A DNA stretch of 64,000 nucleotides from Sweltsa coloradensis (taxonomy: Eukaryota > Arthropoda > Insecta > Plecoptera > Chloroperlidae). Position 1 is the stretch's first letter; each line of letters begins with the position of its first letter. Both the position numbers and the translations under genes were made by a program. Under the pieces are notes generated by a model. The model was not told where the DNA came from and did no database searches. It saw nothing but the letters and a program-made list of their open reading frames with translations. Of this stretch, positions 39,855 through 61,008 are shown piece by piece. The DNA lies in the NCBI GenBank assembly GCA_024449915.1, contig JAMZAV010000105.1:620001-684000 (forward strand). Direction: 5' to 3'.

Positions 39855-40414
39855 GCTAATTTTTCAAAAACATGTTGTTTCTGTTTTTTGGTGGTGGTGC
39901 CGAGCTGGCAGCAGAGAATTATTTGATTTTAATGAAGACATTCATCTATTGTTTTGCATTTAGGCCTACCTATTGTTTATTTTATATACTTAGGCTAACC
40001 ATGCATGGAAAACGATCCATAAGGGTTCTGGGTTTTACTGTAGGCCCTATCCAACCAAATACAAAAATTTGTAAAAAAAAAACGGCAGCCACGCTCTCCT
40101 TCAAAAGTCTTCAGCTGTGAATGCTGTGAGATTTATTTTATTTATTTATTTAAGTAAGCCTTCTACAGTGTTCACTCATATGCATGTCCATATAGACATG
40201 CGAGTATATGAAGTTGTCTGTACAATTGTTAAGAAAACAAACATAAACAACAACATAAAACAGTTTACAATGTTAACAAAGTTCAATTCGATAAAAGAGT
40301 GCAATTGGTCAATTAAAATAGTTTCAATGTAGATACAATATATCAGTCTTAGATTAAAAATAAAATTAAAACTAAGATATTTGGGTTCACACAACATATG
40401 TACTGATACTATCG

Positions 40415-41060
40415 TTAGCTTAAGCTAGTCCTATACAATACAAGTCTCAAATATTCACTTACTGAATAAAAGCTGTGTTCCAAAAGGAATGATTTAATCC
40501 TAGCCTTAAACTCCTTCCTAGAGCTTGTAACACCAACATTCCGTAATTCTTCAGGCAATTTGTTATATACTTTAATTCCCATGTTCACGGGATCATTATC
40601 CAGCAGCTTCAATCTATGGCTAGTCTGGTACAATTTTCCCTTCCCCTCTCGTGTTTATATTATGGACATTTGCATTCAATTGAAATAAGTTAGGAAATTT
40701 ATTTACAAACATGATAACCTCAAGCAGATACAGACAAGCTACAGTTAATATATTTGCATTCTTAAAAGCCTGTCTGCATGATTCTCTAGAGCCTAAATGG
40801 AGCATATTACCGCAATGCTCTCTTCTGAAGGCAAAAAATCTTACTTACACTCGTTGAGTTCCCCAAAACAATATCCCATAGTTTATCAGAGACTGAGTGT
40901 TGGCATGAAAAACTATTTTCCTTGTATCCAAATTACATTGGGTGGACAAGGCTTTCATTGTAAAACAAGAAGAGCTTAGTCTCTTGCCCAGGTCTTCAAT
41001 ATGAGATGACCACTTTAGTTTAAAATCCAGTTTAAGGCCTAGGAATTTGGCTACCTCCAC
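40415..41060 (-). pseudogene. LINE: thumb and C-terminal tail after reverse transcriptase
   Basis: Three successive frames give KFLGLKLDFKLKWSSHI (the '(Y/F)LG..(L/I)D..L.W..HI' motif after the YADD box), then ANTQSLINYGILFWG ('...Y.SLI.YGI..WG'), ACLYLLEVIMFV and IKVYNKLPEELRN...FKARIKSFL. These motifs, in this order, are standard for CR1/L2/Jockey reverse transcriptase ORFs. Two frameshifts separate them (near 40850 and 40625). Confidence 0.85.
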
Positions 41061-41072
41061 TATATCAATTGA

Positions 41073-41580
41073 TTAGTTGTTATGCTCTACTGTTAAATGT
41101 TGACCCTTAACTTGGTAGGTAATTATTTGGGTTTTTGAACAGTTTAGCTTCAATTTGTTAGCCTTGAACCATGCTTCTAATTCTCTAAGAATAACTCCCA
41201 ATTTGTAAATTAACTCGTCTATGCCCTGTGCCGTAATTATCACGGTAGTATCATCTGCGAAAGAATTGCTTTGCAATGACGCGCTAAATAAGGTGGTAAA
41301 TCGTTGATATAAAGGCTAAGAAACTGGACCAATATTAGAACCCTGCGGAACCCCACTATTAACCTGTTTCCAACCTGATGAACACTCAACACCATTGCTG
41401 TTAATATCTACGCGTTGCTTTCGGTCAGTAAGATAGGATCTGACCCATGAACCTGCTGTACCCCTTAGTCCGTATGTTTTAATTTATCATAAGGATAGAA
41501 TGGTGAAGTGTATCGAATGCTTTAGACAGATCGCACATAATAGATCCACCACTAGTTTCTTATCTAAGGCGTTATTGATC
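41073..41580 (-). pseudogene. LINE: reverse transcriptase core
   Basis: In different frames the minus strand encodes DLSKAFDTLHH (about 41552-41495), the fingers/palm motif. It continues with WVRSYLTDRKQRVDI and VNSGVPQGSNIGPV (about 41440-41330), then SFADDTTVII (41273-41241) with the catalytic Asp pair. Stops and frameshifts break it at least three times. The next motif, TYQVKGQHL, leads directly into the segment ending at 41060. Confidence 0.85.
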
Positions 41581-41749
41581 TCATGTTTAGTTGGAATGCT
41601 GCCGTAAAGGTAGAGTGTCCCTCTCCCTTTACCCATGTTTATTCTCGCATAGTATATTATTGTCATTGAGAACACGGGTTTCCCCGCTAAGAAATATTTT
41701 TTTGAACACCTTTGCAAAGTCGGCAGCAATGCAACTGGCTAATTTGAAT

Positions 41750-43310
<1,561 letters not shown>

Positions 43311-43329
43311 AACTTTTAATATTGCCCAA

Positions 43330-43710
43330 TTGGCGGACGATAAATAGTGATAAAATATGGGAGTGGAAGAAAACAACTTCCAATGCCACATACTTTAAGG
43401 ACTCTCTCAAAACAGACTTGCATGTAATGTCGGATCTTGGTTAATAATTAGATTCCTAAGTTTCTAAATGTAGATACACACCCCCCCTCCTTTTGCACTG
43501 GTCTGGTAAAATATGAAGCTAATGTAAAATCATTAATAATAACTGAATGTTCTTGGAGAAGGTAACATCCAATGCTCTCCAAAACACAGAATGTCAATTA
43601 CCTCTGGAACAGAATCTAAAAAAAAATTCCACCTGTTCGGTTTTATACATAAGCTTCTAATGTTTTGATGGAAGACATTAACTTTTATAGGCCTATCTTT
43701 CCCGTCCCCT
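43330..43710 (-). pseudogene. LINE: start of APE-type endonuclease
   Basis: The minus strand reads VNVFHQNIRSLCIKPNRW, then VPEVIDILCFGEHWM, and after a frame change ALEVVFFHSHILSLFIV followed by a PPIGQY-like stretch. This matches the N-terminal half of apurinic-type LINE endonucleases: 'hhN(I/V)RS', the catalytic Glu in 'hlchhsE.(W/H)', and 'h.hh.hYRPP'. The remaining catalytic half falls in the damaged region. Confidence 0.8.
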
Positions 43711-44034
43711 TTGTTTAGTGGGCCCTTCCGCTTATAGAATTTATATTTTTATCATCTGAGACTTCCCCAAACTTTGGTCCCTCCAGAATTAAATTTGAAT
43801 TAGTAATAGTTCCTCTAGGCCTAGTTCCTAATTCAACTTTCTTCTCTTTTCAAATTATACTTTTTTTACTTTCCCCTTTTCCCATCTTGCAAAAATTTAG
43901 TGCCTCATCACCCAAAATGTTAAAATTGTTCCATCTACCTGGTTAATCAGTTTATCCATAATAGAGGTAATTCCCCCATTTTAAACATAAAAACCAATCT
44001 TCTGAGTGTTTGCCGGGCCCTGTTTTATGGCACT

Positions 44035-44430
44035 GGATTTTTTCAGTGTTGGTGTCTGAAACTTTGGTGTCTTTGGTGAGTTGGGCTCGGCAACATCCTT
44101 GGTTATCAAGGTGGGCTCGGCATCACCCTTGGTCGTCCGAGTGGGCTCAGGGGCAGTCTCGGTTGTCGAGTGGGCTCGGCATTGTCCTTGATATTTCGGG
44201 GTGAGCTCTGGGGCCAGTCTGGGTTATCGAGGTGGGTCGGCGTCATCCTTGCTTATCGAGGTGGGCTCAGGGGCCGTTTCGGTTATCGAGGTGGGCTAGG
44301 CATCGTCCTTGATTGTCGAGGTGAGCTCAGGGAAGTCTTGGTTATCGAGGTGGGCCCGCATCGTCCTTGATTGTCGGGGTGAGCTCACGGGCCAGTCTCG
44401 GTTATCGAGATGGCTCGGCGTCGTCCTCAG
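44035..44430 (-). repeat. 30-bp tandem encoding a 10-residue Pro/Glu/Thr repeat
   Basis: Units of about 30 bp ('tggttatcgaggtgggctcg' + 'gcatcgtcct') run for some 390 bases. On the minus strand the best frame reads EPTRTTKGDA, EPTLITKDVA and TTETAP-EPT, an acidic, Pro/Thr-rich repeat. It continues into KTPKFQTPTLKKSSAIKQ. The position between the esterase-like domain and the endonuclease suggests a disordered tail of the LINE first ORF. Indels between units break the frame. Confidence 0.75.
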
Positions 44431-44779
44431 CAAGTTCAGGCCCCCCAAGGCTCAGCGAGAGTAGGCCTAATTCTTTTGCGACATTGTAACTGTGAGACTG
44501 GTGTTTTCCTCCTCGGACAACTTCACGGCTGAGGTGGAGATACTGGTACAGGCTATGGCCTCAGGTGATGTCATCCAGATTTCGCTCTCGATGAGTTCCG
44601 TCAGATAACTATTTGGCCTAGGCATATCTTTGGTTATAGTGTTAGTGTGGCCATCTAGATCAATCAGATGAACCTCATTTTTGTATTCGTCTCCGATGCT
44701 AGGTTTCCGGCAAAGCTTTAGGGTTTGGTAGCAACTCAGAGTCATTGATTGATTTAGCAATCGAGCTCACACAGCTTCA

Positions 44780-45133
44780 CTTTTCCTCTATGATTTAAAT
44801 GGAGGCCATGTCTGGTGTAATTCTCCTTGCTCATGGCCTTCGACAGATTAATGAAATTTATGTTGTCGGTTTTTGATAATGCTGTTTCTAAAGCCCGGTT
44901 TGCTTCATGGATTGTATTATTCAAGTAGGTTTATCGTACCTATTTAAGATGGAAGTCATGAAGATTTTGTCCCTGATGCTGCGTTTTTTAGCTTCTAATA
45001 GAATTGGGTTGATCACATTCTCTGAGATGTACCCTTCTTGAACATTGCCTTCAACATGAATGGCCCCTACACCATCTGTTGGCTGTAGGTTTATATCATT
45101 TGTGCCTCCAATTATCACTGTTATTTCTTTCAT
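44780..45133 (-). pseudogene. SGNH esterase-like domain of LINE ORF1
   Basis: The frame 44921-45133 starts MKEITVIIGGTNDINLQPTD; GGTND is the block III signature of SGNH hydrolases. After a frameshift (near 44925) come NNTIHEANRALETAL, INFINLSKAM and TRHGLHLNHRGK. The HGLHLN stretch fits block V, although the catalytic Asp of 'DGLHLN' is His here. ORF1 proteins of CR1-like LINEs are known to carry such an esterase domain, which supports its assignment to the LINE. The N-terminal Ser block was not found. It is decayed and probably inactive. Confidence 0.75.
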
Positions 45134-45559
45134 AGGCCTACCTTTGTTGACCTCTATTCCCTTTACTATTTCATTTACCCCTGCGTTCGGTTTTCAGGTT
45201 AGCGGTAACTTTGTACTTGTCTCCAAGTTTATACTGGAGATGATTTCGACACAATCTACCATGACTGTCAGTTAACAACCGAGACTAAGATTTTTGCTCT
45301 AGTAGGTTCCTTTTGGTTTGATGTTTTTGCTTTTGGTTGGATCTGGTATTGTGAATTGGTTAAGTTCTCACTATACACAGATCTAGGCCTAGAACTATGA
45401 TTCTGCTGTTGCTTTTTCCTTTTCCTTTGACTTGCTCGTGCAGGTTAGCAGAATGTCAAACCGGTTTCGCGTGGAAACTGGCACCTGACCTTCCAGAGCT
45501 TGTGTCTCATTAATTTTATTACAGGCCTACTATGCCTAGACCTAAAATCATTGTTGTCA

Positions 45560-46130
45560 TTAGTCCTCCCGTTTCTTGTGGTAAACAACAATATCTATAT
45601 CTGCAAATATAAAAAACTGCTTCTATGAGCAGTTTAACTTGTTGCCATTCCATCCGTCCCGCCCACATCCAGTTTAGGGATGGCCAGCTTCCTGATTCTA
45701 TAATTTTCGCATTGCAACTTGAGCTCGAGTAGACTCTGTAGAAGTGAGACAAGTGTGGGCTTGCTGTTCGATTGGTTTTTTGTTATCAAGTAAAAAATGA
45801 ACCGCCTGCCATTAGTCAGTGAGGCCACTTCTCCTACACCTTTATTCTGTCTTAAAAGAGCAGCATCATTGCTGCATATTTGCCTTAGTTCTGCGGCAAC
45901 TCCTTGGCTCATCTGCATATCAGCAGCTACACAATGTGCTATGGAAGTGTCCGAAGGGGCATCCAATATATTCCCAATTATTTCCTTTAGCATACTAGGC
46001 CTAGACTTTGGCTTAGAACTACCATTATTATCAGCTGTGATAGTACTTACATGAAGAGGCCTAAGCCTATTTGTTTCATATGAGCTAACTACTGTTTCAG
46101 TAGACCATATTATTATATATATTATTAGAC
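45560..46130 (-). pseudogene. Macrodomain of OARD1/TARG1 type upstream of the esterase
   Basis: Macrodomains bind or hydrolyse ADP-ribose; the OARD1 group removes ADP-ribose from glutamate and deacylates O-acetyl-ADP-ribose. The frame 45634-45993 reads IIGNILDAPSDTSIAHCVAA, then MSQGVAAELRQ, GVGEVASLTNGRRFIFYLIT and KPTLVSLLQSLLEL. These match in order the family pattern 'GD(L/I)(F/L).(A/C)P..(D/S)S(L/I)AHC(V/I)(S/A).D..M..G(I/V)A', 'GEVA.L...R.(I/V)(F/Y)YL(I/V)TK', 'KPT...L..SL..(L/M)'. Two frame changes at homopolymers lead to DGMEWQQVKLLIEAVF and DIDIVVYHKK, the usual end. The Gly of 'MG.G(I/V)A' is Gln-Gly here, so activity is doubtful. The frame stays open upstream (ETVVSSYETNRLRPLHV) to the gypsy LTR. 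Confidence 0.8.
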
Positions 46131-46132
46131 CA

Positions 46133-46365
46133 TATTATATTTCTTATTACGTTTTTCTAGTCAGGATGGATTAATAGTTTACAAATAACGACGGACTACA
46201 TTTTTAGTTGACTGTTTATTGATACAATGACAATACAGTAAAGTGCGGGAGTCCTACTTTTTAGGTCCCACCAAACAACTTAGAAATCTTCTACCTAGTA
46301 CCAACCTAACAACATGATACATGTAGTTGTTGTTGTTGTCAGTTTTCAAATACCTTTATATAACA
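46133..46365 (-). repeat. Gypsy 3' LTR
   Basis: It is nearly identical to 50666-50897. In sense orientation it starts TGTTATATAAAGG and ends TATATAATA, imperfect inverted ends. The partial duplicate 'agaccatattat' just outside (46103-46114) blurs the outer boundary. Confidence 0.93.
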
Positions 46366-46378
46366 TCCCCTTTTCTAA
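46366..46378 (-). other. Gypsy polypurine tract
   Basis: AGAAAAGGGGA on the minus strand directly precedes the 3' LTR, the expected plus-strand DNA primer position. Confidence 0.8.
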
Positions 46379-46516
46379 ACTGAAACATTACTATTCAACA
46401 ACATAATGAGAAGTACAATTATTTGTTTTACAATTCTAAAGATAGGGTTACAAAGATAGAATTGCTTACTTAAATTACAAACTATTTATAAGTCATAAAT
46501 CATAATCAAAAGTTGC

Positions 46517-47659
46517 TTAGCGCTGATAGTCTAACAGATAACGAGGCAGTTGTTTCTTTCGAGTTGGCCTAGTTATCGTTTGAGACAAAGGAGGTTCTAA
46601 AACTAAAGGATCAATCGGAATCACTGGTTCTGGAAGGTGATTTGGTTCTTGGAACAACTCTTCCGGAAGTGGCTGTGTTACTATGGGAGGAGGGTTTACA
46701 GACTGGTGCAAATCTCTTCGGTTCCTACGGAAATCTGCGTTGTTGGCCGTAGTAACGATGTACGACCTAGGCGATTCATGTATTCCCTTTACGATGGCTT
46801 TCTCCCATGTATCTCCACGTCTAATTCTGCAACTCTCTCCTATTTTTAGTTCTGGTAGAGGACGAGCCGATCTATCATAAAACTTCTTCTGACGACATTG
46901 TTTTAGACGAAGGGCGTCCGTAACCTGTGTTTCTACTCTAGGTTCTAATAGAGACTTGGATATCGGCAACTTTGTGCGAAGATTTCTGCTCATTAGCAAT
47001 TGTGCTGGAGATCTGTTTATGTCCTTAACTGGAGTTGATCTGTATTCTAAAAGAGCTGTATAGATATCTGTCCCTTCTGCATGTGCTTTACGGAGCATTG
47101 TTTTACCAATCTTAACTGCACTCTCTGCCATCCCATTAGATTGGGCATATGTTGGGCTTGATGTGATTATTTGGAAATCCCATTCTCTTGCAAATTGTTT
47201 GTATTCGTAGCTCATGAATGGCATATTGTCGGAAACTACGCACTCTGGGATACCATTATGTGAGAACACCATTTTCATATTTTGGATCACATCTTTAGCT
47301 GTTTTGCCTTTGCACTTAATGATTTCTAACCATTTTGAATAGTAATCAATTATCGCCAGGTATGTCACTCCACTATACTCTAGGAAATCGGCAGCAATCT
47401 TCTGCCATGGCCGATCAGGAATTTTATGAGGAAGTAATGGCTCTTTTGAGTTGTTTCTCTGAAACTTCTCACAGATCCAGCACTTGGACACTGTGTCCTC
47501 GATTTGCTGGGTCATGCCAGGCCAATAAAGAATTCCTCGTGCTCTCGCCTTACATTTTTCCATGCCCTGATGGCCCTCATGAATTGAATTTAACATTTTC
47601 TCACGCATTGTTTGAGGTACAAGTAACTTATTTCCTACAAACACTAAACCTTCCGACAC
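46517..47659 (-). CDS. Gypsy integrase region of pol
   Basis: Integrase inserts the retrotransposon cDNA. The zinc-binding domain shows HEGHQGMEKC and KCWICEKF (residues about 28-65; HHCC pattern). The core has the acidic triad at ADFLEY, VVSDNMPFMS and NGMAESAVK, though the usual 'DNGPQF' is changed to DNMPFM. The C-terminal part has RRGDTWEKAIVKGI (a GPY/F-like module), then a Pro-rich tail ending RYLLDYQR, a form common in Ty3/gypsy elements of invertebrates. The start given is just the first Met; the coding sequence belongs to one pol polyprotein with 47769-49271, separated by a single frameshift near 47780. The frame is otherwise intact for 380 codons. Confidence 0.93.
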   Translation of the reverse strand: MSEGLVFVGNKLLVPQTMREKMLNSIHEGHQGMEKCKARARGILYWPGMTQQIEDTVSKCWICEKFQRNNSKEPLLPHKIPDRPWQKIAADFLEYSGVTYLAIIDYYSKWLEIIKCKGKTAKDVIQNMKMVFSHNGIPECVVSDNMPFMSYEYKQFAREWDFQIITSSPTYAQSNGMAESAVKIGKTMLRKAHAEGTDIYTALLEYRSTPVKDINRSPAQLLMSRNLRTKLPISKSLLEPRVETQVTDALRLKQCRQKKFYDRSARPLPELKIGESCRIRRGDTWEKAIVKGIHESPRSYIVTTANNADFRRNRRDLHQSVNPPPIVTQPLPEELFQEPNHLPEPVIPIDPLVLEPPLSQTITRPTRKKQLPRYLLDYQR

Positions 47660-47768
47660 AGAGATCTGTTCCTGCAGTTTCCAATAAGGCTTTACACCTG
47701 GTTCAACCTCGGAAACTCGTCTTGGCCATCCTTCTGTGTGGTAGTGAATTATTTGCTGAAGGACTGTG

Positions 47769-49271
47769 TCAGCTAAAGTTGCTTTTTGAGTTTTCCTCCC
47801 TCTTTGCAGGACTAATGGCTAAATGTTTTTCTACTGTATGTACAATGACGTTAAGTTCTGGATCATCCTCAACCGGGTCCATTAGATAGGCCCTTGATAG
47901 TGTATCAGCCAAGAACAACTCTTTGCCAGGGACATACGACACATTTAAATCATATCTTAACAATTTAAGCAACATTCGCTGAAGCCTAAATGACACTAGA
48001 TTTAGCTCCTTCTTCACGATAACGACAAGTGGTTTATGATCAGTATGTACATTTACGTTTCTACCGTACACGTATTGGTGAAATTTTTGTACACCGTAAA
48101 CTATTCCAAGCATTTCCTTTTCAATTTGAGCATAATTTTTCTCTGCTGCAGTGAGACTGCGAGATGCATATGCAATTGGAAGAGAATCTTGCATCAAGCA
48201 TGCACCTAACCCGTCTTTCGAGGCATCGTTCTGTAAAACTAGGGGTTTGGCTTGATCATAATATTGCAAAACAGGTGCATTGCACAGTTTCTCTTTTAAA
48301 CTAGCCAATGCTTTCTCATGTTGAGGCTGCCATTGCCAATCAACATCATTTTTTAACAATTCCCTTAATGGGGCAGTGGTATGTGAAAGTTTGGGTACAA
48401 ACTGAGCTACATACGTGACCATGCCTAGAAATCGGCGTAAATCTTCCTTACTTGTTGGGCGAGGCATCTCAACCATTGCTCGAATTCTGTCCTTGTCTGG
48501 TTTGAGTCCTTCCGATGTTACCAGATGTCCTACGTATTTGACAGAATCCACTCGTAGTTGCATCTTCTCCTTGTTGAACTTCACTCCATACTGCTTGGCT
48601 CTCTCTAGCACTGCAAGAAGTATCTGATCATGTTCCTCTACAGTTGTGCCTGCAATTATTAAGTCATCAAACACAATCCACACTCCCTGAATATCACCAA
48701 ATATTTTCATGACCTTCTTTTGAAATATTTCTGGTGCCGAGCTGACACCAAATGGAAGCCTTTCAAAGCGATATCTACCGAAAGGGGTCTGAAAAGTACA
48801 GTAGTCAGCACTAGAATTGTTTAATTGTATATGCCAAAAACCGTCCTTCATGTCCAGTATTGTGAACACTTTTTTTCCGTTCATACGAATCGCGACATCT
48901 TCGGCAGTCGGAATTGCAAAATGTTCCCGCTTAATCGCCATATTTAAATCTCTAGGATCAAGACAGAGACGTAGACGTCCATCTTGTTTCTCCACTATAA
49001 CGAGACTACTGACCCAGTCAGTAGGGTGATCTACTTTGGATACGACTCCTTGTTTTTCAAGAGTGTTTAAGGTTTCTTTCAGTTTGGGTTGGAGCTGAAA
49101 TGGGACCTTTCGAGGGGCATGAATAACAGGATCTACCTTATCGTTTAAAACCATGTTATGCTCACCTGGGATTTTCCCTAATCCTTCAAACAACTCACTG
49201 TATTGAGCTACAATACCCTCTTTAGTCTGAATCCACTGTCCAAGGTTTCTAGCTACATTAACCTTGTCCAC
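47769..49271 (-). CDS. Gypsy reverse transcriptase and RNase H
   Basis: Copies the element RNA into DNA and degrades the RNA strand. Visible in order: PVIHAPRKVPFQL, then WVSSLVIVEKQDGRLRLCLD (fingers), MKDGFWHIQL (first catalytic Asp), FGRYRFERLPFGVSSAPEIF, and WIVFDDLIIAG, where the catalytic pair is VFDD instead of the usual Y-x-DD. Then come the thumb (KYVGHLVTSEGLKPD), the connection, and RNase H with VLQNDASKDGLGACL, EKEMLGIVYG and HTDHKPL. The tail motif VPGKELFLADTLSRAYL ends the domain. The listed start is a GTG; the true polyprotein comes from upstream through a frameshift near 49303. The frame ends by a frameshift into the integrase. Confidence 0.94.
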   Translation of the reverse strand: MDKVNVARNLGQWIQTKEGIVAQYSELFEGLGKIPGEHNMVLNDKVDPVIHAPRKVPFQLQPKLKETLNTLEKQGVVSKVDHPTDWVSSLVIVEKQDGRLRLCLDPRDLNMAIKREHFAIPTAEDVAIRMNGKKVFTILDMKDGFWHIQLNNSSADYCTFQTPFGRYRFERLPFGVSSAPEIFQKKVMKIFGDIQGVWIVFDDLIIAGTTVEEHDQILLAVLERAKQYGVKFNKEKMQLRVDSVKYVGHLVTSEGLKPDKDRIRAMVEMPRPTSKEDLRRFLGMVTYVAQFVPKLSHTTAPLRELLKNDVDWQWQPQHEKALASLKEKLCNAPVLQYYDQAKPLVLQNDASKDGLGACLMQDSLPIAYASRSLTAAEKNYAQIEKEMLGIVYGVQKFHQYVYGRNVNVHTDHKPLVVIVKKELNLVSFRLQRMLLKLLRYDLNVSYVPGKELFLADTLSRAYLMDPVEDDPELNVIVHTVEKHLAISPAKREENSKSNFS

Positions 49272-49303
49272 TTTTCTAATAAGGTTCAGTTTCTGACATC
49301 CTA

Positions 49304-50113
49304 CTAGGCTAGCAATGGTTGTGACTCTATGTCAGCAACAATAAAATCTAATTTCATAGGTTCATTGCTACCCTTGGTACAAGCTAACTCTACTACACCT
49401 CTAGGCTTGATTCTATGATTCCCGAAGGTGACCAATATTGTGTTGGTATCTCTTACCTTGTTTTTAGAAAATAGGCCTAGGCTGTCAAAAATTTTACCTG
49501 GTAGGACATTCACCTGAGCACCTGTATCTAGCTTGAAAGTTACATTTTTATCACACAGTTTTAAATTAGTAAGCCACACATCCTTCTCAACTTGTGATAC
49601 AGACTGTTCTTCTAGTAAGTGAACTACATACTCATTTTCTTCAAGTGTCACTTCTTTAACCTGTTTAGGGTTAGGTTTCTTGTTGAAACACATTGAACTA
49701 TAATGATTATTTTTATGACACACATAACACTCTTTACCAAAAGCAGGACAAGCCCTTGGTAGATGTTTATTACCGCAACTGCGACAGTCAAAAGCTTTGG
49801 TCCCAGTTTTAGTTGTGGTCGGTTCACTGTAGTATTTATCAGTTTTTGGTTCGCTAGTACTGGCTGATTTTTTCTTAGGGTTGCGATTGCGCTTTGTCTT
49901 CACAATGTTTATTTCACTTGGAACTAGGCCTACCTGTGGGTCTCGGAGCTGCTCGAGTTGTTGTTTTGATACCTCAGCCGCCCGGCAAATAGTGATGGCT
50001 TTTGTCCAAGGATAGGGCACCGTCTCGGAGTAACTTTTCTTGTAGCGAGAAATCCCGGATCCCAAACACGATTCTAGCTCGGAGTAGGTTGTCCAACTGA
50101 TCTCCAAAATCAC
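49304..50113 (-). CDS. Gypsy gag C-terminus with zinc knuckles, and protease
   Basis: The nucleic-acid-binding part has two zinc knuckles: CRSCGNKHLPRAC (C-x2-C-x3-H-x4-C) and CYVCHKNNHYSSMC (C-x2-C-x4-H-x4-C), about residues 110-145. It is preceded by a Lys/Arg/Ser-rich segment. The aspartic protease begins NVTFKLDTGAQVNVLP with the catalytic DTG. Its second loop is near GVVELACTKG, and it ends at SQPLLA, where a stop appears through a frameshift before the reverse transcriptase. The upstream gag frame joins by another frameshift near 50000. It functions as part of a gag-pol polyprotein in intact relatives. Confidence 0.9.
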   Translation of the reverse strand: MILEISWTTYSELESCLGSGISRYKKSYSETVPYPWTKAITICRAAEVSKQQLEQLRDPQVGLVPSEINIVKTKRNRNPKKKSASTSEPKTDKYYSEPTTTKTGTKAFDCRSCGNKHLPRACPAFGKECYVCHKNNHYSSMCFNKKPNPKQVKEVTLEENEYVVHLLEEQSVSQVEKDVWLTNLKLCDKNVTFKLDTGAQVNVLPGKIFDSLGLFSKNKVRDTNTILVTFGNHRIKPRGVVELACTKGSNEPMKLDFIVADIESQPLLA

Positions 50114-50478
50114 ACGTGCCTGATTTGGTACGGAGTTCCGTCAAGAAGCTATCAAACGGCTGTCCTTCTTTCTGTTTTACATTGAAGAAATTAAACTGTT
50201 CCATTATTATATTCACCTGCGGCAAGCAGTGTTCTTCGAATTTTCTTAGTACTACCTCGTACTTCTTCTTGTCTTCTGGGGTTTCAAAACGAAGTTGTTA
50301 AAATGGGTTGAGCGTCGGGTCCAATTAAGTTTATCAACATAGCTATTTTTCGAGGATCTGGCTTTGTATCCAAACCTGTGGCAGAGATGTAGGTCTCAAA
50401 CTCTTGCCTCCAAGCCTTCCATTCTACACGTGGATTATCTTTAATTCTCAACACGGGCGGAACACGAAACCCTTCCAT
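49974..50478 (-). pseudogene. Gypsy gag N-terminal region
   Basis: The frame 50284-50478 starts MEGFRVPPVLRIKDNPRVEW and continues KAWRQEFETYISATGL, the typical opening of gag in mag/SURL-like gypsy elements. The next frame (49974-50225) contains NFFNVKQKEGQPFDSFLTEL and DNLLRARIVFGIRD, the capsid region. At least two frameshifts (near 50260 and 50000-50110) break it. Confidence 0.85.
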
Positions 50479-50648
50479 TATTATTCTTGTAATATATAAT
50501 GGTAGGCCTAGGCTAGGCTATGCGCGGAATGAATATTCACTCGTTTTTATATTTTTTTCAACATGTGGTCGGCCCCGCCTAACCTCACTTTTTATAAAAA
50601 CATTTTTATAATCGCGCTCTACGAGATAAACTTGTAAATAAACTTAAA

Positions 50649-50665
50649 TCCCACTTCTGACACCA
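50649..50665 (-). other. Gypsy primer-binding site, tRNA-Leu type
   Basis: TGGTGTCAGAAGTGGGA on the minus strand directly follows the 5' LTR. It is complementary to a tRNA 3' end TCCCACTTCTGACACCA, close to animal tRNA-Leu. Confidence 0.8.
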
Positions 50666-50897
50666 TATTATATATTCTTATTACGTTTTCTAGTCAGGAT
50701 GGATTAATAGTTTACAAATAACGACGGACTACATTTTTAGTTGACTGTTTATTGATACAATGACAATACAGTAAAGTGCGGGAGTCCTACTTTTTAGGTC
50801 CCACCAAACAACTTAGAAATCTTCTACCTAGTACCAACCTAACAACATGATACATGTAGTTGTTGTTGTTGTCAGTTTTCAAATACCTTTATATACA
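50666..50897 (-). repeat. Gypsy 5' LTR
   Basis: Near-identical to the 3' LTR; differences are a few indels near the two ends (for example TATATTC against TATTTC). A TATATAAAGG stretch at the start could serve as a promoter element but lies at the very edge of the LTR. Confidence 0.93.
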
Positions 50898-51376
50898 CTT
50901 GCTGCCAACCCCATCGGTCCTTGTGTATTCATAGGCCTAGGCCAAGTTGGGCCTAGTCCTACCACATGGCTTCCATGGACCTGCCTTGGGTTTTTTGGGG
51001 ATTTGGGTTCACCTACAGTTGATTTCTGCCCCGCAGATAGGCCTAGTGTTCCTACTTCTATAGGCCCATACAATCTTCGTATTTCTGTAGTCACTGATTG
51101 AACTTGTTCACTGTAAGTAGGCCTAGGTAGGCCTAGCCCTACCACTCCTTTGTTGCCACCCAGTCCTGGGCCTAGGCCTAGACTAGGCCTATGCCTCGTA
51201 TTCCCGCACGTTTTTGCCGATTTCGGACAAGTATTCGTTTTATTCTTGTCGCCAGCACTTTACTGTATAATCTATTGCTTTTTTCGTTCATTTATAACCG
51301 CATGTTCCACATTTTTAGACTGTTTACTATAAAATATCCGGGAACCTTTTACTTGCCCATCAACACCGTCCGCCAT
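50898..51376 (-). pseudogene. Probable 5' part of the LINE ORF1
   Basis: It begins MADGVDGQVKGSRIFYSKQ at 51376 in a strong start context (AAGATGG). A stop appears after about 35 codons, and a second frame (from about 51145) reads TYSEQVQSVTTEIRRLYGPI, then Gly/Pro-rich sequence up to the gypsy LTR. The second frame is dense in TAGGCCTA motifs, so its Gly-Leu-Pro-Arg content is partly imposed by that motif. The link to the macrodomain rests on co-orientation and position. Confidence 0.4.
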
Positions 51377-51395
51377 CTTGATGTGCGAGAGAGAA

Positions 51396-51726
51396 ATATA
51401 GAAGTTAAGCCAAGCTTTTTATTCTTTCTCTCCTAGTTTCGCTTTGAAAATAAGTAAGATCATTTCGCCTGTTGACGAGCGCCAAGCCAACGATTTTTGT
51501 GGTAAAAAAGTAAAATTTTTTAAACTCGAAATCATAAAAAAAAGTTCTTGGCCACGAACCAAATTCAATGGCCAAGCCATTTTTTTTATGATTTCGAGTT
51601 CAAAATTTTTTACTTTTTTACCACAAAAATCGTTGGCTTGGCGCTCGTCAACAGGCGAAATGATCTTACTTATTTTCAAAGCGAAACTAGGGAGAAAGAA
51701 TAAAAAGCTTGGCTTAACTTCTATAT
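51396..51726. mobile_element. Near-perfect palindromic fold-back element, 331 bp
   Basis: Arms of about 145 bp (51396-51544 and 51583-51726) are almost exact inverted copies around a short loop. The loop itself carries cttggcca/tggccaag. Both arms encode the same open-frame start, ISKIISPVDERQANDF, in opposite directions, a simple result of the palindrome. A TA on each side of TAGAAG/CTTCTA could be a two-base target duplication. Confidence 0.85.
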
Positions 51727-51861
51727 CTCACAGCATTCACAGCCGAAGACTTTTGAAGGAGAGCTTGGCTGCCGTTTTTTTTTTTTTACAAATTTTTGTA
51801 TTTGGTTGGATATTACATCTTTTTGTTGTTCGTTTGCTATCAAGGTGTGAATGATGGACTT

Positions 51862-52600
51862 TGAATGATTAAATTTGTTAAGTTCAAAGTTGTTTTTTTG
51901 ACATTTTTGGGCCCACGGTCCCCCCAAAGATACCCCTTTCTTTTAAGCACTAGATATTTATAATGGTTAAGAGCATGTTTAATTTAAAGCTTGTACAAAT
52001 TACTACGCCTGAGTAATTACGCATTTTGATTTGATTTTCCCAGGTCCCCGATTGCCCGGTTTTGGTTATATGAGGTACATCTGAGTGTGGCCCAAGTTTC
52101 AAAGTTCTAAGATGAACCATTTTCTCAGTATAGGGTATTATTCATAAGAGTACGGAATTACCTACTTTTGATAATTTTGATTTTTTCCGGTACCCGTTAC
52201 CCAATTTTGCTTTCCGTATTCAAAAGTGATAAAGAATGAGAGATATCAAAATGTATTCCACGTTTGAAACATCTCAGTTGTAGCGTTTTCTTTGAATGAT
52301 TCATTTCTTAAAGTTCAGATATGTTTTTTGTCATTTTTGGGCCCATGGTCATCCCCAAATTTAGCCCCTTGTGTTTTGGACACAAGATATTTATAATGGT
52401 TAATAGCATGTTTAATTTCAAGTTTGTACAAATTACCACGCCTTGGTAATTACGCGTTTTGATTATCATCCAAATTTTGATTTTCTCCGGTCCCTGTTAC
52501 CCGATTTTGGTTTTGAAAGCAAAAGTCACTGCGTCTGAAGTACATCTAAGTGTGGTCCAAGTTTCATAGTTCTAAGATTTACCGTTTTCTCTGTAGGCTA
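51862..52600 (+). repeat. Two tandem units of about 430 bp
   Basis: 'catttttgggccca.ggtc' at 51902 recurs at 52332. Order and spacing are kept through 'agatatttataatggttaa', 'gcatgttta', 'acaaattac.acgcct', and 'catct.agtgtgg.ccaagtttca'. Divergence is perhaps 15-20 percent. No coding function. Confidence 0.75.
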
Positions 52601-53140
52601 AATTAATCTCCGCAGAGAACTAACCAGCCACCCACCCACCAGCCAGCCGAAAGGAATTTGACGATGTTGAGAGCCTTTTTTAACACAGAACGAGTTGTCG
52701 GATCGGGTTGATTTTTTTTTTGGTATGTCATGGACCACATACCAGGTCATATACCGAGTTTCAAGATTGTAACTCTTTCGGGGCGGCGTGTGCAGATAGC
52801 TGAAAACCCCCCAACTCTGGTAGCTGTATACAGGGCTGGAGTTCGTGTCGCCTAAGCAGTCGCATGCGCTTGTCTGCCGGGCGACGACCGTCGCCCTAGA
52901 TAATGAATAGGCCTGTACATATTTTTTGTATTTTTATCATTTTTTATTGATTTTTATGACAAATAATTTCAATTAGTTAAAATAAAGTCATGTTGCCCTA
53001 CAACAATGTTTCAAGTTGGAGGGCCTAGTAATTGTAAACCTAAAGCCTACTACAAATCCTAGATAATAACCACTCAGAAGAAATAGCATCATCACCTTTA
53101 TAAAGGTCTATTACAACACATATTTATGTTGTAGGTCTAA

Positions 53141-53698
53141 TTGGATGAGCGAAGCGAAGACTTTAATTTCATTGAACGCCCAAAAAATTTAGCTCGGGTG
53201 TGTTTTTTTTGTCTGTTCGTTTGCGCTCTCCGGACAAACGGCATATGCGATCTTGCTGAAAATTTGAGGGGACCTTCGAAATCTCTGAACTTAGACTTGC
53301 CACGTTTTTGGGTACAATCAAAGAAATATTTCTCATAAATATCGTACTTTTACGATTTTTTTCAATTTTTAGTGCAATATTTTTGTGACGTTTGGGTCGA
53401 TTCTGACCAAACGGGTGGGGCTACAACGTTCATATTTTACATGGACATTAAGGTAATGGTGATGTATTGCTTTCTGAAAGTAAAAGTTGAAAAAATTAGC
53501 CAGAATCCATAGAATAAAGGTTTTAATATGAGATTTTTGAGGTTTATAATAACAATTAACAAGTAACAATAGAAACTTGACAACAATCACCTACAATACA
53601 TTCAAAAAGCACTTGCAAAGGAAAAGTGTTCCTTCGCAAACTAAAAACTTACAAAGAAGCTCATCCATCAACGCGGCGGGACTTAAGCGTTTTCCTAG
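53141..53698 (+). mobile_element. Helitron-like repeat, copy B
   Basis: It has the same start (TTGGATGAGCGAAGCGAAG) and end (AACGCGGCGGGACTTAAGCG + TTTTCCTAG) as copy A at 20601-21344. It carries one copy of the roughly 178-bp core unit where A has two. Confidence 0.65.
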
Positions 53699-54186
53699 TA
53701 ATAATTGTAGCAATAGGACTACAGTAATTTGCAAAGCCCACATAGGCCTACAACGGAGAAATAATGTAGGCCTAAGGCTATAATTTCTATCAAATTAGAA
53801 ATGCTCTTCCACAAATCCAACTAATGGAAGTTACTTTAAGACGGCTTCTAAAACCTTTAAAACTCACCAAATCGGACCCCCGGGCCCCCATTTCTGTCCC
53901 TGCCATGTGATTACAGTACCTGGCAATGTTTTTTAGAATAACCATTGAATTTTATTTCCTGGGGAGAACACTGACTCCTACCATGAGTTTGACCAGCCTT
54001 TCCTAAACTGTGGGTCGCGAGAACTTTTGAAAATCCAAAAATCTTGACTTTTTTTACTAGTAGGCCTATAAGCCTAGGGGCTTATGCCATGAAAAAAGTG
54101 AAAATATGGTGCATAATAATTACTTTCCTGTTGCGCCTTCCAGTGAAAGGTAGACAACCTGCTGAAGCATTGCGTAATAAATATTT

Positions 54187-55539
54187 GTTCTGAAGCTCAC
54201 GTATAATTGGCCGATATGTTCGAAATTAAACAAACTGAATTTGTTGTTGAACAACAAACTAAAGTATGAAGGAACCGATACAACATTACATTGCCATGTT
54301 GAATACACTGGTTCTCAATTGATCACCGAAGTTAAGACACATTGGGTGTGGTCAGTACTTGGATGTGAGACCGGTTGGGTTGGTCTTTCGGGTGATAAAG
54401 ATCACCAAAGTGGGGCCCCGCTAGAAAACGATTCTTAAATTGTCGCCTTTATTACCAAAATGGGGAGAAGAGGGTGAATGGGTTGAGAAAATGTTGATCA
54501 TTATTTCCTTGAAGAGATGGAAATCTGTCAGCAAAATAAGTGGGTTGCAAATCCATTACAGAGCGACGCAATGACTGGGTCATCAACAGAGGCTGATGAA
54601 TAACTCATTGACATGTGTGAAAACTCAGCATTAAAAATTAATTATATTATTATATTATTTTGACATTGTTCTGGCTGACTGTTCAACAAACCTAGGCCTA
54701 TTCAACTATTTTTTCTGATATTTGAAAGAGTATACTAATTTCCACATCTTACATCTCACTTCATAATTTGATTTTCATTTCAAATTTCGAAACAAGTTGT
54801 TATTATCCAAGTATTTTCGCGTGGAAATCACTCGCATCTATGTGGACGTCAATGACTCAATGAATATTGTTCTGAAGCTCACGTATAATTGGCCGATATG
54901 TTCGAAATTAAACAAACTGAATTTGTTGTTGAACAACAAACTAAAGTATGAAGGAACCGATACAACATTACATTGCCATGTTGAATACACTGGTTCTCAA
55001 TTGATCACCGAAGTTAAGACACATTGGGTGTGGTCAGTACTTGGATGTGAGACCGGTTGGGTTGGTCTTTCGGGTGATAAAGATCACCAAAGTGGGCCCC
55101 GTTAGAAAACGATTCTTAAATTGTCGCCTTTATTACCAAAATGGGGAGAAGAGGGTGAATGGGTTGAGAAAATGTTGATCATTATTTCCTTGAAGAGATG
55201 GAAATCTGTCAGCAAAATAAGTGGGTTGCAAATCCATTACAGAGCGACGCAATGACTGGGTCATCAACAGAGGCTGATGAATAACTCATTGACATGTGTG
55301 AAAACTCAGCATTAAAAATTAATTATATTATTATATTATTTTGACATTGTTCTGGCTGACTGTTCAACAAGCGTAGGCCTATTCAACTATTTTTTTCTGA
55401 TATTTGAAAGAGTATACTAATTTCCACATCTTACATCTCACTTCATAATTTGATTTTCATTTCAAATTTCGAAACAAGTTGTTATTATCCAAGTATTTTC
55501 GCGTGGAAATCACTCGCATCTATGTGGACGTCAATGACG
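54187..55539 (+). repeat. Tandem duplication, two about 671-bp copies offset by 682
   Basis: 54187-54857 and 54869-55539 are nearly identical; differences are single bases and one or two homopolymer lengths. Eleven bases (tcaatgaatat-like) separate them. The near identity points to a recent duplication or an assembly duplication. The content may be a decayed hAT-type sequence: a plus-strand frame contains KWVANPLQSDAMTG and, after a stop, LIDMCENSALKINY, resembling the 'L(I/L)DL..DS.LK' stretch before the hAT dimerisation domain. That reading is weak. Confidence 0.85.
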
Positions 55540-55654
55540 TCCTCAACAGAACCCAAAAACAAGCGCACCCTCCTCATTATCATAAGTTGTGTAGGGCCTA
55601 TGTTAAATTATATTCAATGTCTTCTCCTCTTCTTCTCATATGCCCACATTTGGC

Positions 55655-57580
55655 CTATGATGCCATCATGCTTGATCTAGTCAACCAATAGAGACGAGCC
55701 TCCCTTTCCTCCTTCTTCATGCCGTTGGGCATTGCGTCACGCTCATTTGCCAGACTGGCACAGGTATATAGATGTCGTCTGTCATGTTCACCATTTCCGC
55801 ATAATCTGCAGGTACTGGTTTCAAACACGCCTATTCGGTGCAGATGCTTCCCTAGAAGGTCATGTTGAGTCTTCAACCTGAACTGTGCTGTTTCTGTTCG
55901 TCTATCATATATTCTTTTGGGTTTACTTGGCTGCGTGGTGTACACCTGCCATGGTTTGTCTTGTCCCTTTTTGACCCATTCTTGTCTAATTTTCTTAGAA
56001 ACTGCAGCATTTACATGGGCTTTAACTGAGCTGTAAGTTATCGGTTTGCTCTGTTGTAGCATTTTGCTCCCTTTCTTAGCTAAGAAGTCCGCTTTATCAT
56101 TGCCATATACATTGCAGTGTGATGGTATCCATTGTAGCTTAATTATCTTGTTTGCATTGTGCAGTCTTAGGATTTGTAATTTGCACTGCCTTACCGCAGA
56201 ATCTGCCACTTCCTTGTTGACTATGGCTTGTATTGCTGCTTTTGAGTCTGTTAAAATTACAATTTTATCACTGCGGCAGTCTTTAACTTTGTACAGGGGC
56301 TTTAAGAATAGCAGTCAATTCTCCGTCAAAGCAGCTACCATTTTCCCCTGCAGGGTGAGATTCCTCAAACTCTCTGCAATATATGCCTGCCCCAGCTTGT
56401 CCCTCACCTGGGGTAGCCGATCCATCCATGTAAATGTGTAGCCAATCCTTTTCCGGGTAGTTCTTGTGTATGTGAGTTATTGTTAGTTTTCTCAACTCCT
56501 CGTCTATGTAGGATGCCTTTGTCTTGCCCAGTCCATCCACTGTCAATTCATGTAGTACGTCTAGTATGGCAATGTTTATATTTGGTAGGGGGATGTTTTC
56601 TCTCTCTGTGTGTTTCAATTGCCCGATGAGACCTTCCTTCACCTCTTTTACTGCTGTAATGAATGTTTTTTGTGTCTTGAGATGTTCATAGGGTTCTCTG
56701 TCCCATTCAAGCCGGTCTAGTCTTATCAGCTTCTCATGCAGGCAAACTGCTGAACTGTTTCTTCTGGCCTCCAGGGGTGGTATGTTAGTTTTGGCTTCCA
56801 TGGCAACAATTGGGGTTGATTTAACACCTCCCGTGATTATTCTGAGAGCTTGATTTTGTATCCTGTCCAGTGCATCTGTGGCTCCTTTGGTTGACGTTAT
56901 AAGTAGAGAACTGCCATACTCTAGGAGAGGTCGCACATATGTTTTATATGTAGTTTTTAGGGTATCCTCGTTGGCCCCCCATTGTACACCAGCAACTCTC
57001 TTCATCAACCTCAGTCGTCTCTTCCCTGCTGCACACATCTTTTCGATGTGTTCTTTTCCTGTCATTTTTGATCCATGATCATACCAAGATAAGCGGGGTT
57101 ATTTTCCTTGTTCAGTACTGTCCCTGCAAACTTCAGTTGGAAATCGGGGATGAGCTGCCTGGTTGTGTGATAGTTGTATACAGTTTTTTCTTTGTTCACC
57201 ATCATACCGTTCATGTGTTGACCATTCTTCTAGCGCCTTCAGTGCTTTATTCATCTCTTCCTCCATTTCTTCTGCATCCCCTCCACAGTACCACATAACT
57301 ACATCATCTGCAAATATCTTCAGTTTCACTTTACTCCTTGCTTGTATGTATTCTGCCAGGTCATTGATTAAAATAATAAAAAGGATTGGGCTCATTACTG
57401 CTCCTTGAGGCACCCCTGCTTTTGTTTGTCTGTACCGTGATCTCTTGTTGTTGTATCTGACTCGTATAAACCGTTGACTTAAAAAGGTTTTTACCCACCT
57501 ATATATGTTTTCGGGTACTTTCAATTTGTGCATTTTCTGTAGCAGTTTGCCTCTCCAAACTTTGTCAAATGCCGCTCTTC
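55655..57580 (-). pseudogene. 5'-truncated I-clade LINE: reverse transcriptase and RNase H
   Basis: The minus strand opens abruptly at AFDKVWRGKLLQKM (about 57575) inside the reverse transcriptase. Then come TKAGVPQGAVMSPILFIILI and KLKIFADDVVMWY (catalytic Asp pair), in the frame 57099-57533. After a frameshift come MTGKEHIEKMC...RVAGVQWG and YKTYVRPLLEYGSSL. The frame 56283-57065 ends in RNase H, LHIYMDGSATPGEGQAGAGI with its first Asp and FDGELTAIL. A frameshift leads to 55655-56209 with LQWIPSHCNVYGNDKADFLA, the RNase H end. A zinc-like CRLCGNGEHDRRHLYTC near the C-terminus follows. An RNase H domain downstream of the reverse transcriptase marks the I superfamily. Two frameshifts make it inactive. 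Confidence 0.9.
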
Positions 57581-57844
57581 AATTCAATTCAATGTGGATA
57601 GCACATAATTATAAATAAACATTAAGTAATAAAAAAGTAATCTCCTTGTATAATTATAGCTATAGGTGGGTTTCAAAAGTTTGGCATTCTAAAAAATGGG
57701 TTGTTCTAAAAGTTTGGAAACCACTGAGCTAGCTAGGCAGATGACTTTGTATGCTTTGTCCGGACCCAGGCAAGGCTGGGCCTGAGTTTTGCTTGGGTTA
57801 CCCAATAGTATTAATTCCAGCCACATAAAAGTTTTGTGTTGGAG

Positions 57845-57905
57845 TAGTAGTTAGCCTACCTGCTTCCAATACAGAAGGTCACGGGTTCGAATCCCGCTTC
57901 AGGAG
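57845..57905 (+). repeat. tRNA-like sequence (SINE head or tRNA pseudogene)
   Basis: 'agtagttagcctacc' followed by 'ggtcacgggttcgaatcccg' shows A- and B-box-like blocks at tRNA spacing. The acceptor stem is not complementary. No second copy of the downstream body was found here. Confidence 0.5.
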
Positions 57906-58608
57906 GAAGTTTTTTACTTCTAATATGGTTCCAAGTCCATCACTTTTTGTCTTTAGATTTAGTAAACGGGGACTTTAGAGCCGTCCTAGCAACGAGGCAC
58001 TCAACAAACTCAGTTGTTCTGAATCAGCCTTGTTGATTCTGGCGTTGATCCGTGGGTGTTCGCACTGTCCATACCACTGATTGCTATATTTCATATTAAA
58101 AATATCGATCTTTGGTTGGTTATCGCTCGCTCGTCGATTGCATCGGGGCCTGCAGGGTTGGCTTGGTTGCTTTGGTTTAAAGTCCCCCACTGAAAATCAG
58201 TTATGCCTATGACTTAGTGGGTAGACTCTAAATGCAAATTTATTTATTTATTTAAATAAGCTTTAAATGCATATCCAAAGATTTTGGTATTTATTTATAA
58301 TTTCATGTTGAAACAAAATTGACTAAGCCCTCTATGATTGACTCTTATATTAAGGCCAAATCTTAAATACATCAGTAAATATCATAACTGTGTCTAATTA
58401 TAGGCCTATCTCTAATTGCTTGGAACTATGTCAACACTCTGTAGATAATGACAGTCAGAGGAGATGTTTTGAGTTTAAACAGATAATAACTACCTACTTC
58501 AAAGGTCATTAGATAATAAAGCAAACATGATAACTTGAATTGAGGCCTAAAGATTGTTAGACAACGTCTGGAGAAGGAAGTGTGAAGGCATGTAGTAGTG
58601 TTTCTAAG

Positions 58609-58844
58609 ATGTTTGAATCCCATGAGAGTATACAATGTACAAAAGTGCCTTGGAGATTCAGAAGTTTTCGACAGTGTTGTAGAGATTTGAACTACAAGTT
58701 GCATAAAAGTGGTAAAACAATTAAGAAGTATTTGTTTAGTAGATCTTGGCATAAAGTGAGCCGACTGTTTCACATCTCCGAAGATGCAGATGGCTTGCCA
58801 ACTGAACTTGAGTATAAAACATTTATAACAGATGAAGAACGAAG
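58609..58844 (+). CDS. Candidate first coding exon of an unidentified gene
   Basis: ATG at 58609 opens MFESHESIQCTKVPWRFRSF, continues with many basic and aromatic residues (SGKTIKKYLFSRSWHKVSRL), and ends TEFLEYKTF-like acidic sequence ...ITDEER before a good donor, CGAAG|gtaggc. There is an in-frame stop upstream near 58558, so the ATG is a reasonable start. The composition and donor support a real host exon. It lies 1.9 kb upstream of the first visible scramblase exon on the same strand, but its end phase (two bases into a codon) does not fit that exon. It is either a separate gene or joined through an unseen exon. The family is not recognised. Confidence 0.45.
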
Positions 58845-58849
58845 GTAGG

Positions 58850-60740
58850 CCTATGAACTGAAAATATGTTTTTATTCAATTGTATTGAACCCATTGTTAG
58901 TGATCAATGGTATTGGTTGGTAATATTTCTTCTTGTTTGGTTAATATGATACCCTGTAGTTGCTTAAAATATGATGTTAGTTAGTTAGTATAACATTAAA
59001 TATTTAAAAGAGCAATGAGTGTGTGTTGTTATAATTAGTGGATTTTTAACTGTAGGCCCTACAACCATCCACGTACATAGGCTTATGTGGAATTAAATCA
59101 AAATGAATGGTGCCAACTTGTTGCTGAAATGAAGTAACATCAAATATTGTTCACTTCTTTATTTTAAAATTGTCTACTGTACTGGAGTCATTAAAATTTA
59201 AAATGTACCTAATAGCCTCCTCATTTTCTGTCTGGTTTTGTGCTTCAAATTCTATACCATTGGATATGTTTTTAATTGTTTTGTACTTGTTAAATGTAGT
59301 CATTCAATTCAGCTATGAGCTCCTACAAACCAGATTTTAAAGCGCGATGCAGAGGTTTATTCTGGATTACTTTGAATTGAAGCTCTGTTTTTGCAATAAA
59401 TGACCATTAAATAGGCCACCAAAGAAAGTTTTGGTAGGAATTTCCCACGCTTGAGTATGAGACAATTGGTTGCAAAGTTAAAATGTTCTGATTGCGACAT
59501 GCATATATTCTTAGAAGGCCTACATAATTTTTAAAGTTTAAAAAAATTTGAGTTGAGGTTAAAATGTGGTTCAGAATGTATGGAAATTCATTGGATTAGG
59601 TGATGGACATTTTAACCTTCTAAAAAAAATCCATCCATCTAGCTCATCCAACGATCTAAATAATGACAGGTTCACTATTTTTTAAATCAAGTTTGATCTG
59701 CCAGGTATAGCCTGGTGATTAGCATTTAAATGAAGCCAAGTGGGTGCTGTGTTTTAATTTGTGTGCTTTCTTAAAATTCTTCTACCTGGGGCCTACATTT
59801 TATTTTTGTTTTAAAGGAAATATTACTCATATTGGCAGTCGACAAATAGCTATTTGCTCGACCAGGAAACATCTGACGTGTACGAAACTTTATGTAGGCC
59901 TAGTTGTGAAGGAAGCTTACAATGTATATCTACTATCTAGTAGTACACAGTATTATATACAGTATTGTCAGTATTATATTATGTAGTAGAAGTCTATAAA
60001 TAGTACAATACGGTATAGTAGATTATCAATATTTTTTGTTAATCAAATCACGGATAATGTCAATTCTCGACTTTTTACCTAAATCCAAAATTGTAAAAAA
60101 AATAAAAAAAATAAAATAATATAATAAAAAAAGTATGACCCTAGAGCCCTTCATTTCCACTTCCGTGTGTAAAGTTTCAAACAACTGTGATGTCAGTCAG
60201 CCGAGCAAACTGGAATTTGCGTAAAACACATGTCCTATAATATTATCTTCTTAACTTACAACATTATATGTACCCATGGATTGATGTATCATGTTCATGT
60301 TTAGGCCTACACATTTTAAGGTGTTAACACGTTTACTATGTCTTACACAAAATTAAACGTTTGATACCCGCGGACTGTCCATTTTCGATAATAGCCACCA
60401 AGGGTGACGCCCTCCTCAATTCAACCCGTCAGATACAAATAACATTTCAGAAAACGCATTGAACGATGTGTGTTTATCGTGTTATGGAAAGATAGACTAA
60501 AATAATAGTTGTCAATTGTCTAGGTCCAATATAGCTTTTCTTTGTCTAAATGAAAAAATCATAGAAACGGAAACAATGGGCTTGTATATACTGTCACGAG
60601 AGCTTACAAGTTTACTAAACACATCCATATTAGGACCTTAGGAAACAACATACTGCAAATTGTTTGCATGCCTTGTTCTAAAACAGCTACTTTAATATCA
60701 TGTTGATGATATCTCTTATTAATTTGTCCCAACCTCTTAA
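58850..60740. other. Non-coding, possible intron and intergenic sequence
   Basis: AT-rich, with scattered AGGCCTA motifs and A-runs at about 60095-60130. I searched for the Pro-rich N-terminal exon expected for scramblases and did not find one. Confidence 0.5.
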
Positions 60741-60750
60741 TTGAATTCAG

Positions 60751-60870: not shown

Positions 60871-61008
60871 GTAAGGCTCATCACATGACTTCCTGTTGGC
60901 TCCCCCTTTCCCCCTCCTCTTTCCCGCCAGTATATCTTACATTCTTCTGTCTGGAGTAGTGTAAGCCTCTCTCACCCTCACCATTCCGCATTGGTAAACT
61001 TAAACTAA

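Follow-up and report, generated by a model that had tools for sequence, protein, structure and literature searches.

The window copy of the LINE and its macrodomain

The window analysed here is a stretch of 64,000 nucleotides of Sweltsa coloradensis DNA (C105:620001-684000), and the assembly from which it derives (1.449 Gb) served as the genome searched. Its minus strand carries a LINE copy at 40131-51379, a gypsy insertion included, as delimited by blastn with the copy on C1041 (L004, L031), which aligned to window positions 51379-50898, 46106-44219, 44125-43298 and 42557-40131 at 92-99% identity. The 5' part of ORF1 (50898-51376) was recognised from its translation and from an ATG placed by eye at 51376 (MADGVDGQVKGSRIFYSK...); positions 1021-1502 of L004 correspond to window 51379-50898 at 99.0% identity. 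Further along ORF1 lies an OARD1/TARG1-type macrodomain (45576-46002), read in one frame from 46002 to about 45650 and, past a single frame break near 45650, in the next frame from 45653 to 45576. It is followed by an SGNH/GDSL esterase domain (44757-45278) in broken frames (L001 matches of 8.4e-11, 3.4e-26 and 2.7e-22), with SGNH blocks distributed across frames (LLTDSHGR from 45278, GGTNDI in 45118-45086 and TRHGLHLNHRGK in 44819-44757), and by a Pro/Glu/Thr tail of tandem repeats (44098-44427; 81-83% in self-alignment), identified in translation. The apurinic-type endonuclease of ORF2 starts at 43685 (43298-43685; Exo_endo_phos at 9.8e-06 in the intact copy L031), and the reverse transcriptase (RT) motifs and ORF2 3' end occupy 40448-41540, again in broken frames (RVT_1 at 2.1e-34 in intact L031; window match of the genome RT search at C105:660860-661939). 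Between the two, an unstranded homopolymer-rich stretch (42558-43297) fills a gap between blastn matches and is unaligned to the other copy (L004/L031). A sequence-only reading of the locus had proposed a one-strand LINE order of macrodomain, SGNH domain, Pro/Glu/Thr tail, endonuclease and RT, and all of these were located on the minus strand.

Unmentioned in that reading, the window ORF1 is split by a Ty3/gypsy LTR element (46107-50897, minus strand) with an LTR pair 99.1% identical (46129-46362 and 50662-50895) and element frames of 278, 520 and 433 aa. In L004 the sequences on either side of the insertion meet at position 1502, with 1021-1502 aligning to 51379-50898 and 1502-3424 to 46106-44219; inspection by eye revealed no target-site duplication of more than about 1 base. 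The broken frames of the window leave the linkage of the domains unweakened, because ORF1 is a long open frame in other copies of this family.

Several other features share the window. A long palindrome (51393-51729; 92.6%, blastn) lies immediately 5' of the LINE start, two direct repeats of ~680 bp at 54176-55538 each contain a weak 5S rRNA match, and broken frames at 55655-57578 (minus strand) resemble a second LINE-like RT and RNase H by eye. An intronless 184-aa open frame of a Ras/Rap-like GTPase (17477-18031, minus strand, by eye) is possibly a retrocopy. The parts of the window beyond the element (1-39000 and 52001-64000, 51 kb) gave no match to the esterase or the macrodomain profile.

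As a single sequence, the 166-aa open frame at 45634-46134 matched human C6orf130/OARD1 at 1.6e-16, and residues 10-163 of the window macrodomain frame are 97% identical to L002-L004. A profile search of solved-structure macrodomains ranked OARD1 best (7.1e-52) and the DarG macrodomain next (3.5e-12). An AlphaFold2 model of the L004 macrodomain (13 sequences, pLDDT 88.5) aligned with TARG1 bound to ADP-ribose (4j5s) at TM 0.96, 1.1 Å and 37% identity, compared with TM 0.87 for DarG and 0.72-0.78 for viral macrodomains among the best 50 structure matches; the predicted fold is that of the TARG1 class. The macrodomain signature noticed from the letters of the sequence is thus genuine, and a chance resemblance is ruled out by the OARD1 match, the family profile match and the predicted fold together. 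The profile comparison suggested at that time gave a divided answer: L038, L040 and L043 exceed the Pfam cut-off for Macro, but the window family stays below it (18.0 bits in L003, cut-off 22), and Pfam-A recognised no family in the window macrodomain piece (45634-46134) or in three more window ORF1 pieces.

Macrodomain and esterase in one ORF1 protein

Placement of the macrodomain inside a LINE ORF1 had been proposed from order and strand, and is borne out by single ORFs that hold both Macro and GDSL esterase domains with endonuclease or RT frames adjoining; a false link from gene order alone was rejected on these grounds (L038, L040). The 638-aa ORF of L038 (C950) scores 37.5 bits for Macro (cut-off 22) and 33.9 for Lipase_GDSL_2 (cut-off 32.9), and behind it are ORFs with Exo_endo_phos_2 and RVT_1. 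The 1106-aa ORF of L040 scores 45.4 bits for GDSL and 22.8 for Macro, both above cut-off; it is followed by an Exo_endo_phos ORF and by an RT frame that shares 54% identity with the L039 RT. ORF1 of L039 (1210 aa) is below both Pfam cut-offs (esterase 31.6/32.9, macrodomain 16.8/22 bits) and its ORF2 carries endonuclease and RVT_1. The window family is likewise below cut-off for GDSL as well as for Macro (23.1/32.9 in L004), despite which the SGNH motifs of L004 align, and the endonuclease and RVT_1 of its copy L031 pass the Pfam cut-offs. Lipase_GDSL_2 is above cut-off in L037, L038 and L040, and an ORF2 with both endonuclease and RT was found in L031, L033, L038 and L039. Provisional assignment to the esterase-type LINEs (CR1/L2 group) is made from the ORF1 esterase and the ORF2 layout. 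In ORF1 of L040 (L040:699-4016), the macrodomain is followed by what looks, by eye, like another esterase stretch.

Our own macrodomain and esterase profiles were built from six seed sequences each, and the loci tested include four of the esterase and five of the macrodomain seeds. Of 38 loci, 35 have a same-strand SGNH domain adjoining the macrodomain at E 1e-4 and 34 have one at 1e-6; counted as distinct places, with the window included and L017 and L018 taken as one, the figure is 34 of 37. In L010 and L024 no esterase was detected in the stretch examined around the macrodomain, and one locus of the 38 (L036) has the esterase on the opposite strand. The macrodomain body of L036 (C8:1156300-1158700) is inverted between a PHD-like finger (23.7 bits, cut-off 24) and the esterase.

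Two RT searches of the genome (96 of 35411 and 120 of 30665 candidates scored) placed a macrodomain 2.3-5.0 kb upstream of the RT, on the same strand, at 6 of 96 places (the query's own and the window counted) and at 13 of 120 (the query's own counted). Chance expectations for this spacing were ~0.04 and ~0.05, respectively, with ~200 distinct macrodomain places assumed. With macrodomains taken as the best 150 matches, none was listed near the RT in 90 of 96 and 107 of 120 places, which may be explained by 5' truncation, by other ORF1s and by macrodomains ranking beyond the best 150.

Genome-wide, the window macrodomain query produced at least 150 matches at E <= 4.4e-14 (150 of 534 candidates scored, all 150 matching), and by eye 125 of these best 150 contain no internal stop. 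Human OARD1 as query also gave at least 150 matches (best 150 of 643 candidates), 138 of which are stop-free by eye. Near copies were found at eight places beyond the window (L002-L009); with L004 as the reference, the macrodomain-esterase junction aligned at 95.8-98.9% in the seven other near copies and at 95.3% in the window. A search for independent copies with common junctions, advised in the sequence-only reading, accordingly yielded eight other insertions sharing this junction. L002-L006 have the same start (ATGGCGGACGG) and different flanks, and are therefore independent insertions. The module is not unique in the genome, and in the copies read it forms a single uninterrupted stretch within ORF1, with none of the host-type exon structure that had been named as a sign against capture.

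Eight further places opened among the best 150 of 643 OARD1-query matches (L036-L043) carry an esterase-type ORF1 in every case, and the host OARD1 gene was not among these eight. A host OARD1 gene or retrocopy adjoining a LINE by chance would suit the clearly OARD1-like sequence, but given at least 150 macrodomain matches, an identical macrodomain-esterase junction at eight further places and the esterase-type ORF1 at all eight places just described, its probability is negligible, and it is refuted for the window copy, whose macrodomain is multicopy, devoid of exon structure and tied to the LINE.

Domain order, ORF1 exchange and selection

Two domain orders were observed. The macrodomain precedes the esterase in the window family, L011-L016, L019, L021, L022, L026, L037, L038 and L041-L043, and follows it in L020, L023, L027-L030, L039 and L040; L043 combines a PHD finger (27.7 bits, cut-off 24) and a macrodomain (34.9, cut-off 22) with esterase motifs. 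RTs of macrodomain families share ~30-45% identity between groups, and the macrodomain is present in at least four RT lineages. In a 31-row tree, macrodomain-first rows formed one group and esterase-first rows another, while a 38-row tree had two macrodomain-first groups and L039 outside the esterase-first group. Neither a single clade of all LINE rows (AU p = 0.679 with 10 rows, 0.544 with 17 rows) nor a clade of LINE and LTR rows (p = 0.37 and 0.222, respectively) was rejected.

Four RT places without a listed macrodomain, picked for long ORF2 frames and 98.2-99.7% identical in ORF2 DNA, were opened. L045 and L046 are 5'-truncated, L047 retains the ORF1 tail only, and L044 (C2395:162000-166600) has a different ORF1 joined to an ORF2 98.4% identical in DNA to that of L031, with identity beginning abruptly near the ORF1-ORF2 boundary. 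In the L044 ORF1 no macrodomain was detected with our own profile (best 3 bits) and no Pfam family in its two frames; it matches our esterase profile (1.8e-13 and 1.8e-10), and its N-terminal part, partly proline-rich and with soft alignment ends, resembles L012, L014 and L016 at 38-44%. The same ORF2 with a macrodomain-less ORF1 means that ORF1 modules were swapped and that not every copy needs the macrodomain. ORF1s of both kinds, those with the macrodomain and those lacking it, have therefore been exchanged between LINEs in recent times, and the module is both gained and lost. Capture by a retrotransposon, the central proposal of the earlier reading, therefore holds as a macrodomain module in a LINE ORF1, though an exchangeable one: the contrary outcome it had named, that other copies lack the domain, applies to L044 but not to the eight near copies.

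The catalytic Lys and Asp, which on the alignment mapping we take to be human K84 and D125, are kept in 38 of 38 and 34 of 38 loci, respectively; the Asp is out of register in the window (at its frame break), L005, L008 and L025. The K84A mutant of TARG1 is described as hydrolysis-defective in the portion of PMC11102865 consulted. Among ten macrodomains, pS was 0.66-0.93 (near saturation) and pN 0.19-0.47 in 43 of 45 pairs; dN/dS was 0.32 and 0.58 in the two closest pairs (L012/L016 and, with few changes, L004/L006, respectively) and 0.14 in L020/L027. Macrodomain identity was 33-68% over 43 pairs, and esterase identity 24-37% between families. Divergence between families shows purifying selection on the macrodomain. 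A neutral passenger, a chance acquisition transported with the LINE, would be consistent with L044, in which the same ORF2 is paired with an ORF1 lacking the domain. Such a passenger is very improbable, however, when nearly saturated silent differences accompany much lower amino-acid-changing ones in those 43 pairs, the domain is stop-free in 125 of the 150 best matches and it occurs in RT lineages as distant as those described above.

Relatives of the module and its putative function

In those parts of PMC3905857 and PMC4120745 that were available, zebrafish ZfL2-1 and Type IV CR1/L2 elements have the same SGNH ORF1 and endonuclease-RT ORF2, and the esterase-type ORF1 of CR1/L2 LINEs shows a variable N-terminal part and reticulate exchange, as here; PMC4120745 reports that ORF1 evolves reticulately, and the L044 swap agrees with this. 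The ORF1 modules named in these excerpts are esterase, coiled coil, PHD, RRM, CCHC and zinc finger/leucine zipper, unlike which the present ORF1s add a TARG1-type macrodomain, before or after the esterase. The string 'macro' is absent from the text of PMC4120745 and occurs in that of PMC3905857 solely as 'macromolecular' within a reference. No description of a LINE macrodomain was found among the open-licence PMC papers listed by the literature searches, in agreement with the earlier impression that none had been reported.

Human OARD1/TARG1 (4j5s) and bacterial DarG have in common with the LINE domain the fold, the ADP-ribose pocket class and the catalytic Lys and Asp, whereas here the domain is a multicopy module of a retrotransposon protein. 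Viral macrodomains (coronavirus nsp3, alphavirus nsP3) are, like it, modules of a parasite that would strip host ADP-ribosylation, but they belong to another class by the structure comparison above (TM 0.72-0.78 versus 0.96 for TARG1, best 50 matches), and the parasite here is a LINE, not a virus.

Among 7999 candidates scored from a public protein set, a profile search yielded 19 macrodomain proteins. P0004, P0005 and P0007 resemble host OARD1 and carry the source names of a mosquito, an ostracod and a thrips, respectively. The macrodomain directly precedes Integrase_H2C2 in P0006 and P0011 and stands behind an integrase C-terminal SH3 in P0009; in P0009 and P0011 it was identified by our own profile comparisons, Pfam listing none there. 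Given these fusions, LTR-type elements seem to have acquired a TARG1-type macrodomain as well, known from proteins alone. These seemingly LTR-element proteins share the domain with the LINE ORF1 and differ from it in the integrase context. When proteins of ORF1 length were searched with the macrodomain region, none of the 642 candidates reached E 1. Neither the LINE macrodomain nor P0009 had relatives among viral contigs, and a PDB search with the LINE esterase returned a single match (E 1.1).

To our knowledge, esterase-type LINE ORF1 proteins have no settled function. We consider it an evenly balanced proposition that the TARG1-type macrodomain beside the SGNH esterase is a hydrolase, which would clear host-laid ADP-ribose from the RNA and single-stranded cDNA of the element. 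Carried by an ORF1p that would accompany the RNA of its own element, the eraser would act in cis; its targets would be base-linked ADP-ribose, on uracil in RNA and on thymine in single-stranded DNA, and removal would keep translation, reverse transcription and integration unblocked. TARG1-type enzymes take uracil-linked ADP-ribose off RNA and thymine-linked ADP-ribose off single-stranded DNA (excerpts of PMC13036486 and PMC11102865), and ORF1ps are presumed particle proteins (excerpt of PMC3905857), from which we infer a clearing of the element's own RNA and cDNA. RNA binding by an esterase-type ORF1p is unproven: in vitro, the individual domains of ZfL2-1 showed no binding to oligo(A) RNA (PMC3905857), and one of three Drosophila TARG1 paralogues is inactive on U-ADPr (PMC13036486, in part), so the fold alone is no guarantee of activity.

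This nucleic-acid eraser has a serious alternative, albeit one we regard as unlikely, in which the macrodomain would act on proteins and clear their ADP-ribose where integration nicks the target. The enzyme would then remove Glu/Asp-linked ADP-ribose, placed by PARP1/2, at the nick of target-primed reverse transcription, aiding integration instead of countering a defence. TARG1 is described as reversing glutamate- and aspartate-linked ADP-ribose on proteins, as well as the DNA ADP-ribose that PARP1 makes at single-stranded DNA (both from part of PMC11102865). The kept catalytic residues fit this reading too, but the domain sits in ORF1 and not in the endonuclease-RT ORF. Some macrodomains bind ADP-ribose without further action, and the LINE domain could in the same way be a reader that binds ADP-ribosylated chromatin or RNA and docks the particle without catalysis. 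This is decidedly improbable, both residues of TARG1 catalysis being kept across families with 33-68% identity, and a pure reader is not expected to need the Lys.

With the nucleic-acid eraser as the preferred reading, a wider proposal can be made, tentatively and with confidence somewhat short of even: LINEs and LTR elements may both be armed with a TARG1-type eraser, traded by LINEs as an ORF1 cassette, in which case ADP-ribosylation of retroelements would be a host defence and the eraser its antidote. If true, ADP-ribosylation would constitute a genome defence against retrotransposons, parallel to what has been proposed for viral macrodomains. A selected and swapped module with a known substrate class makes host ADP-ribose marking of LINE RNA and cDNA a question for the bench.

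A further public protein, P0001 (source lgn), resembles an esterase ORF1 whose N-terminal position is occupied by a Ulp1-type protease (Peptidase_C48 51.8 bits, cut-off 20.7; esterase 23.4/23.6). This protease is putatively another remover of host modification.
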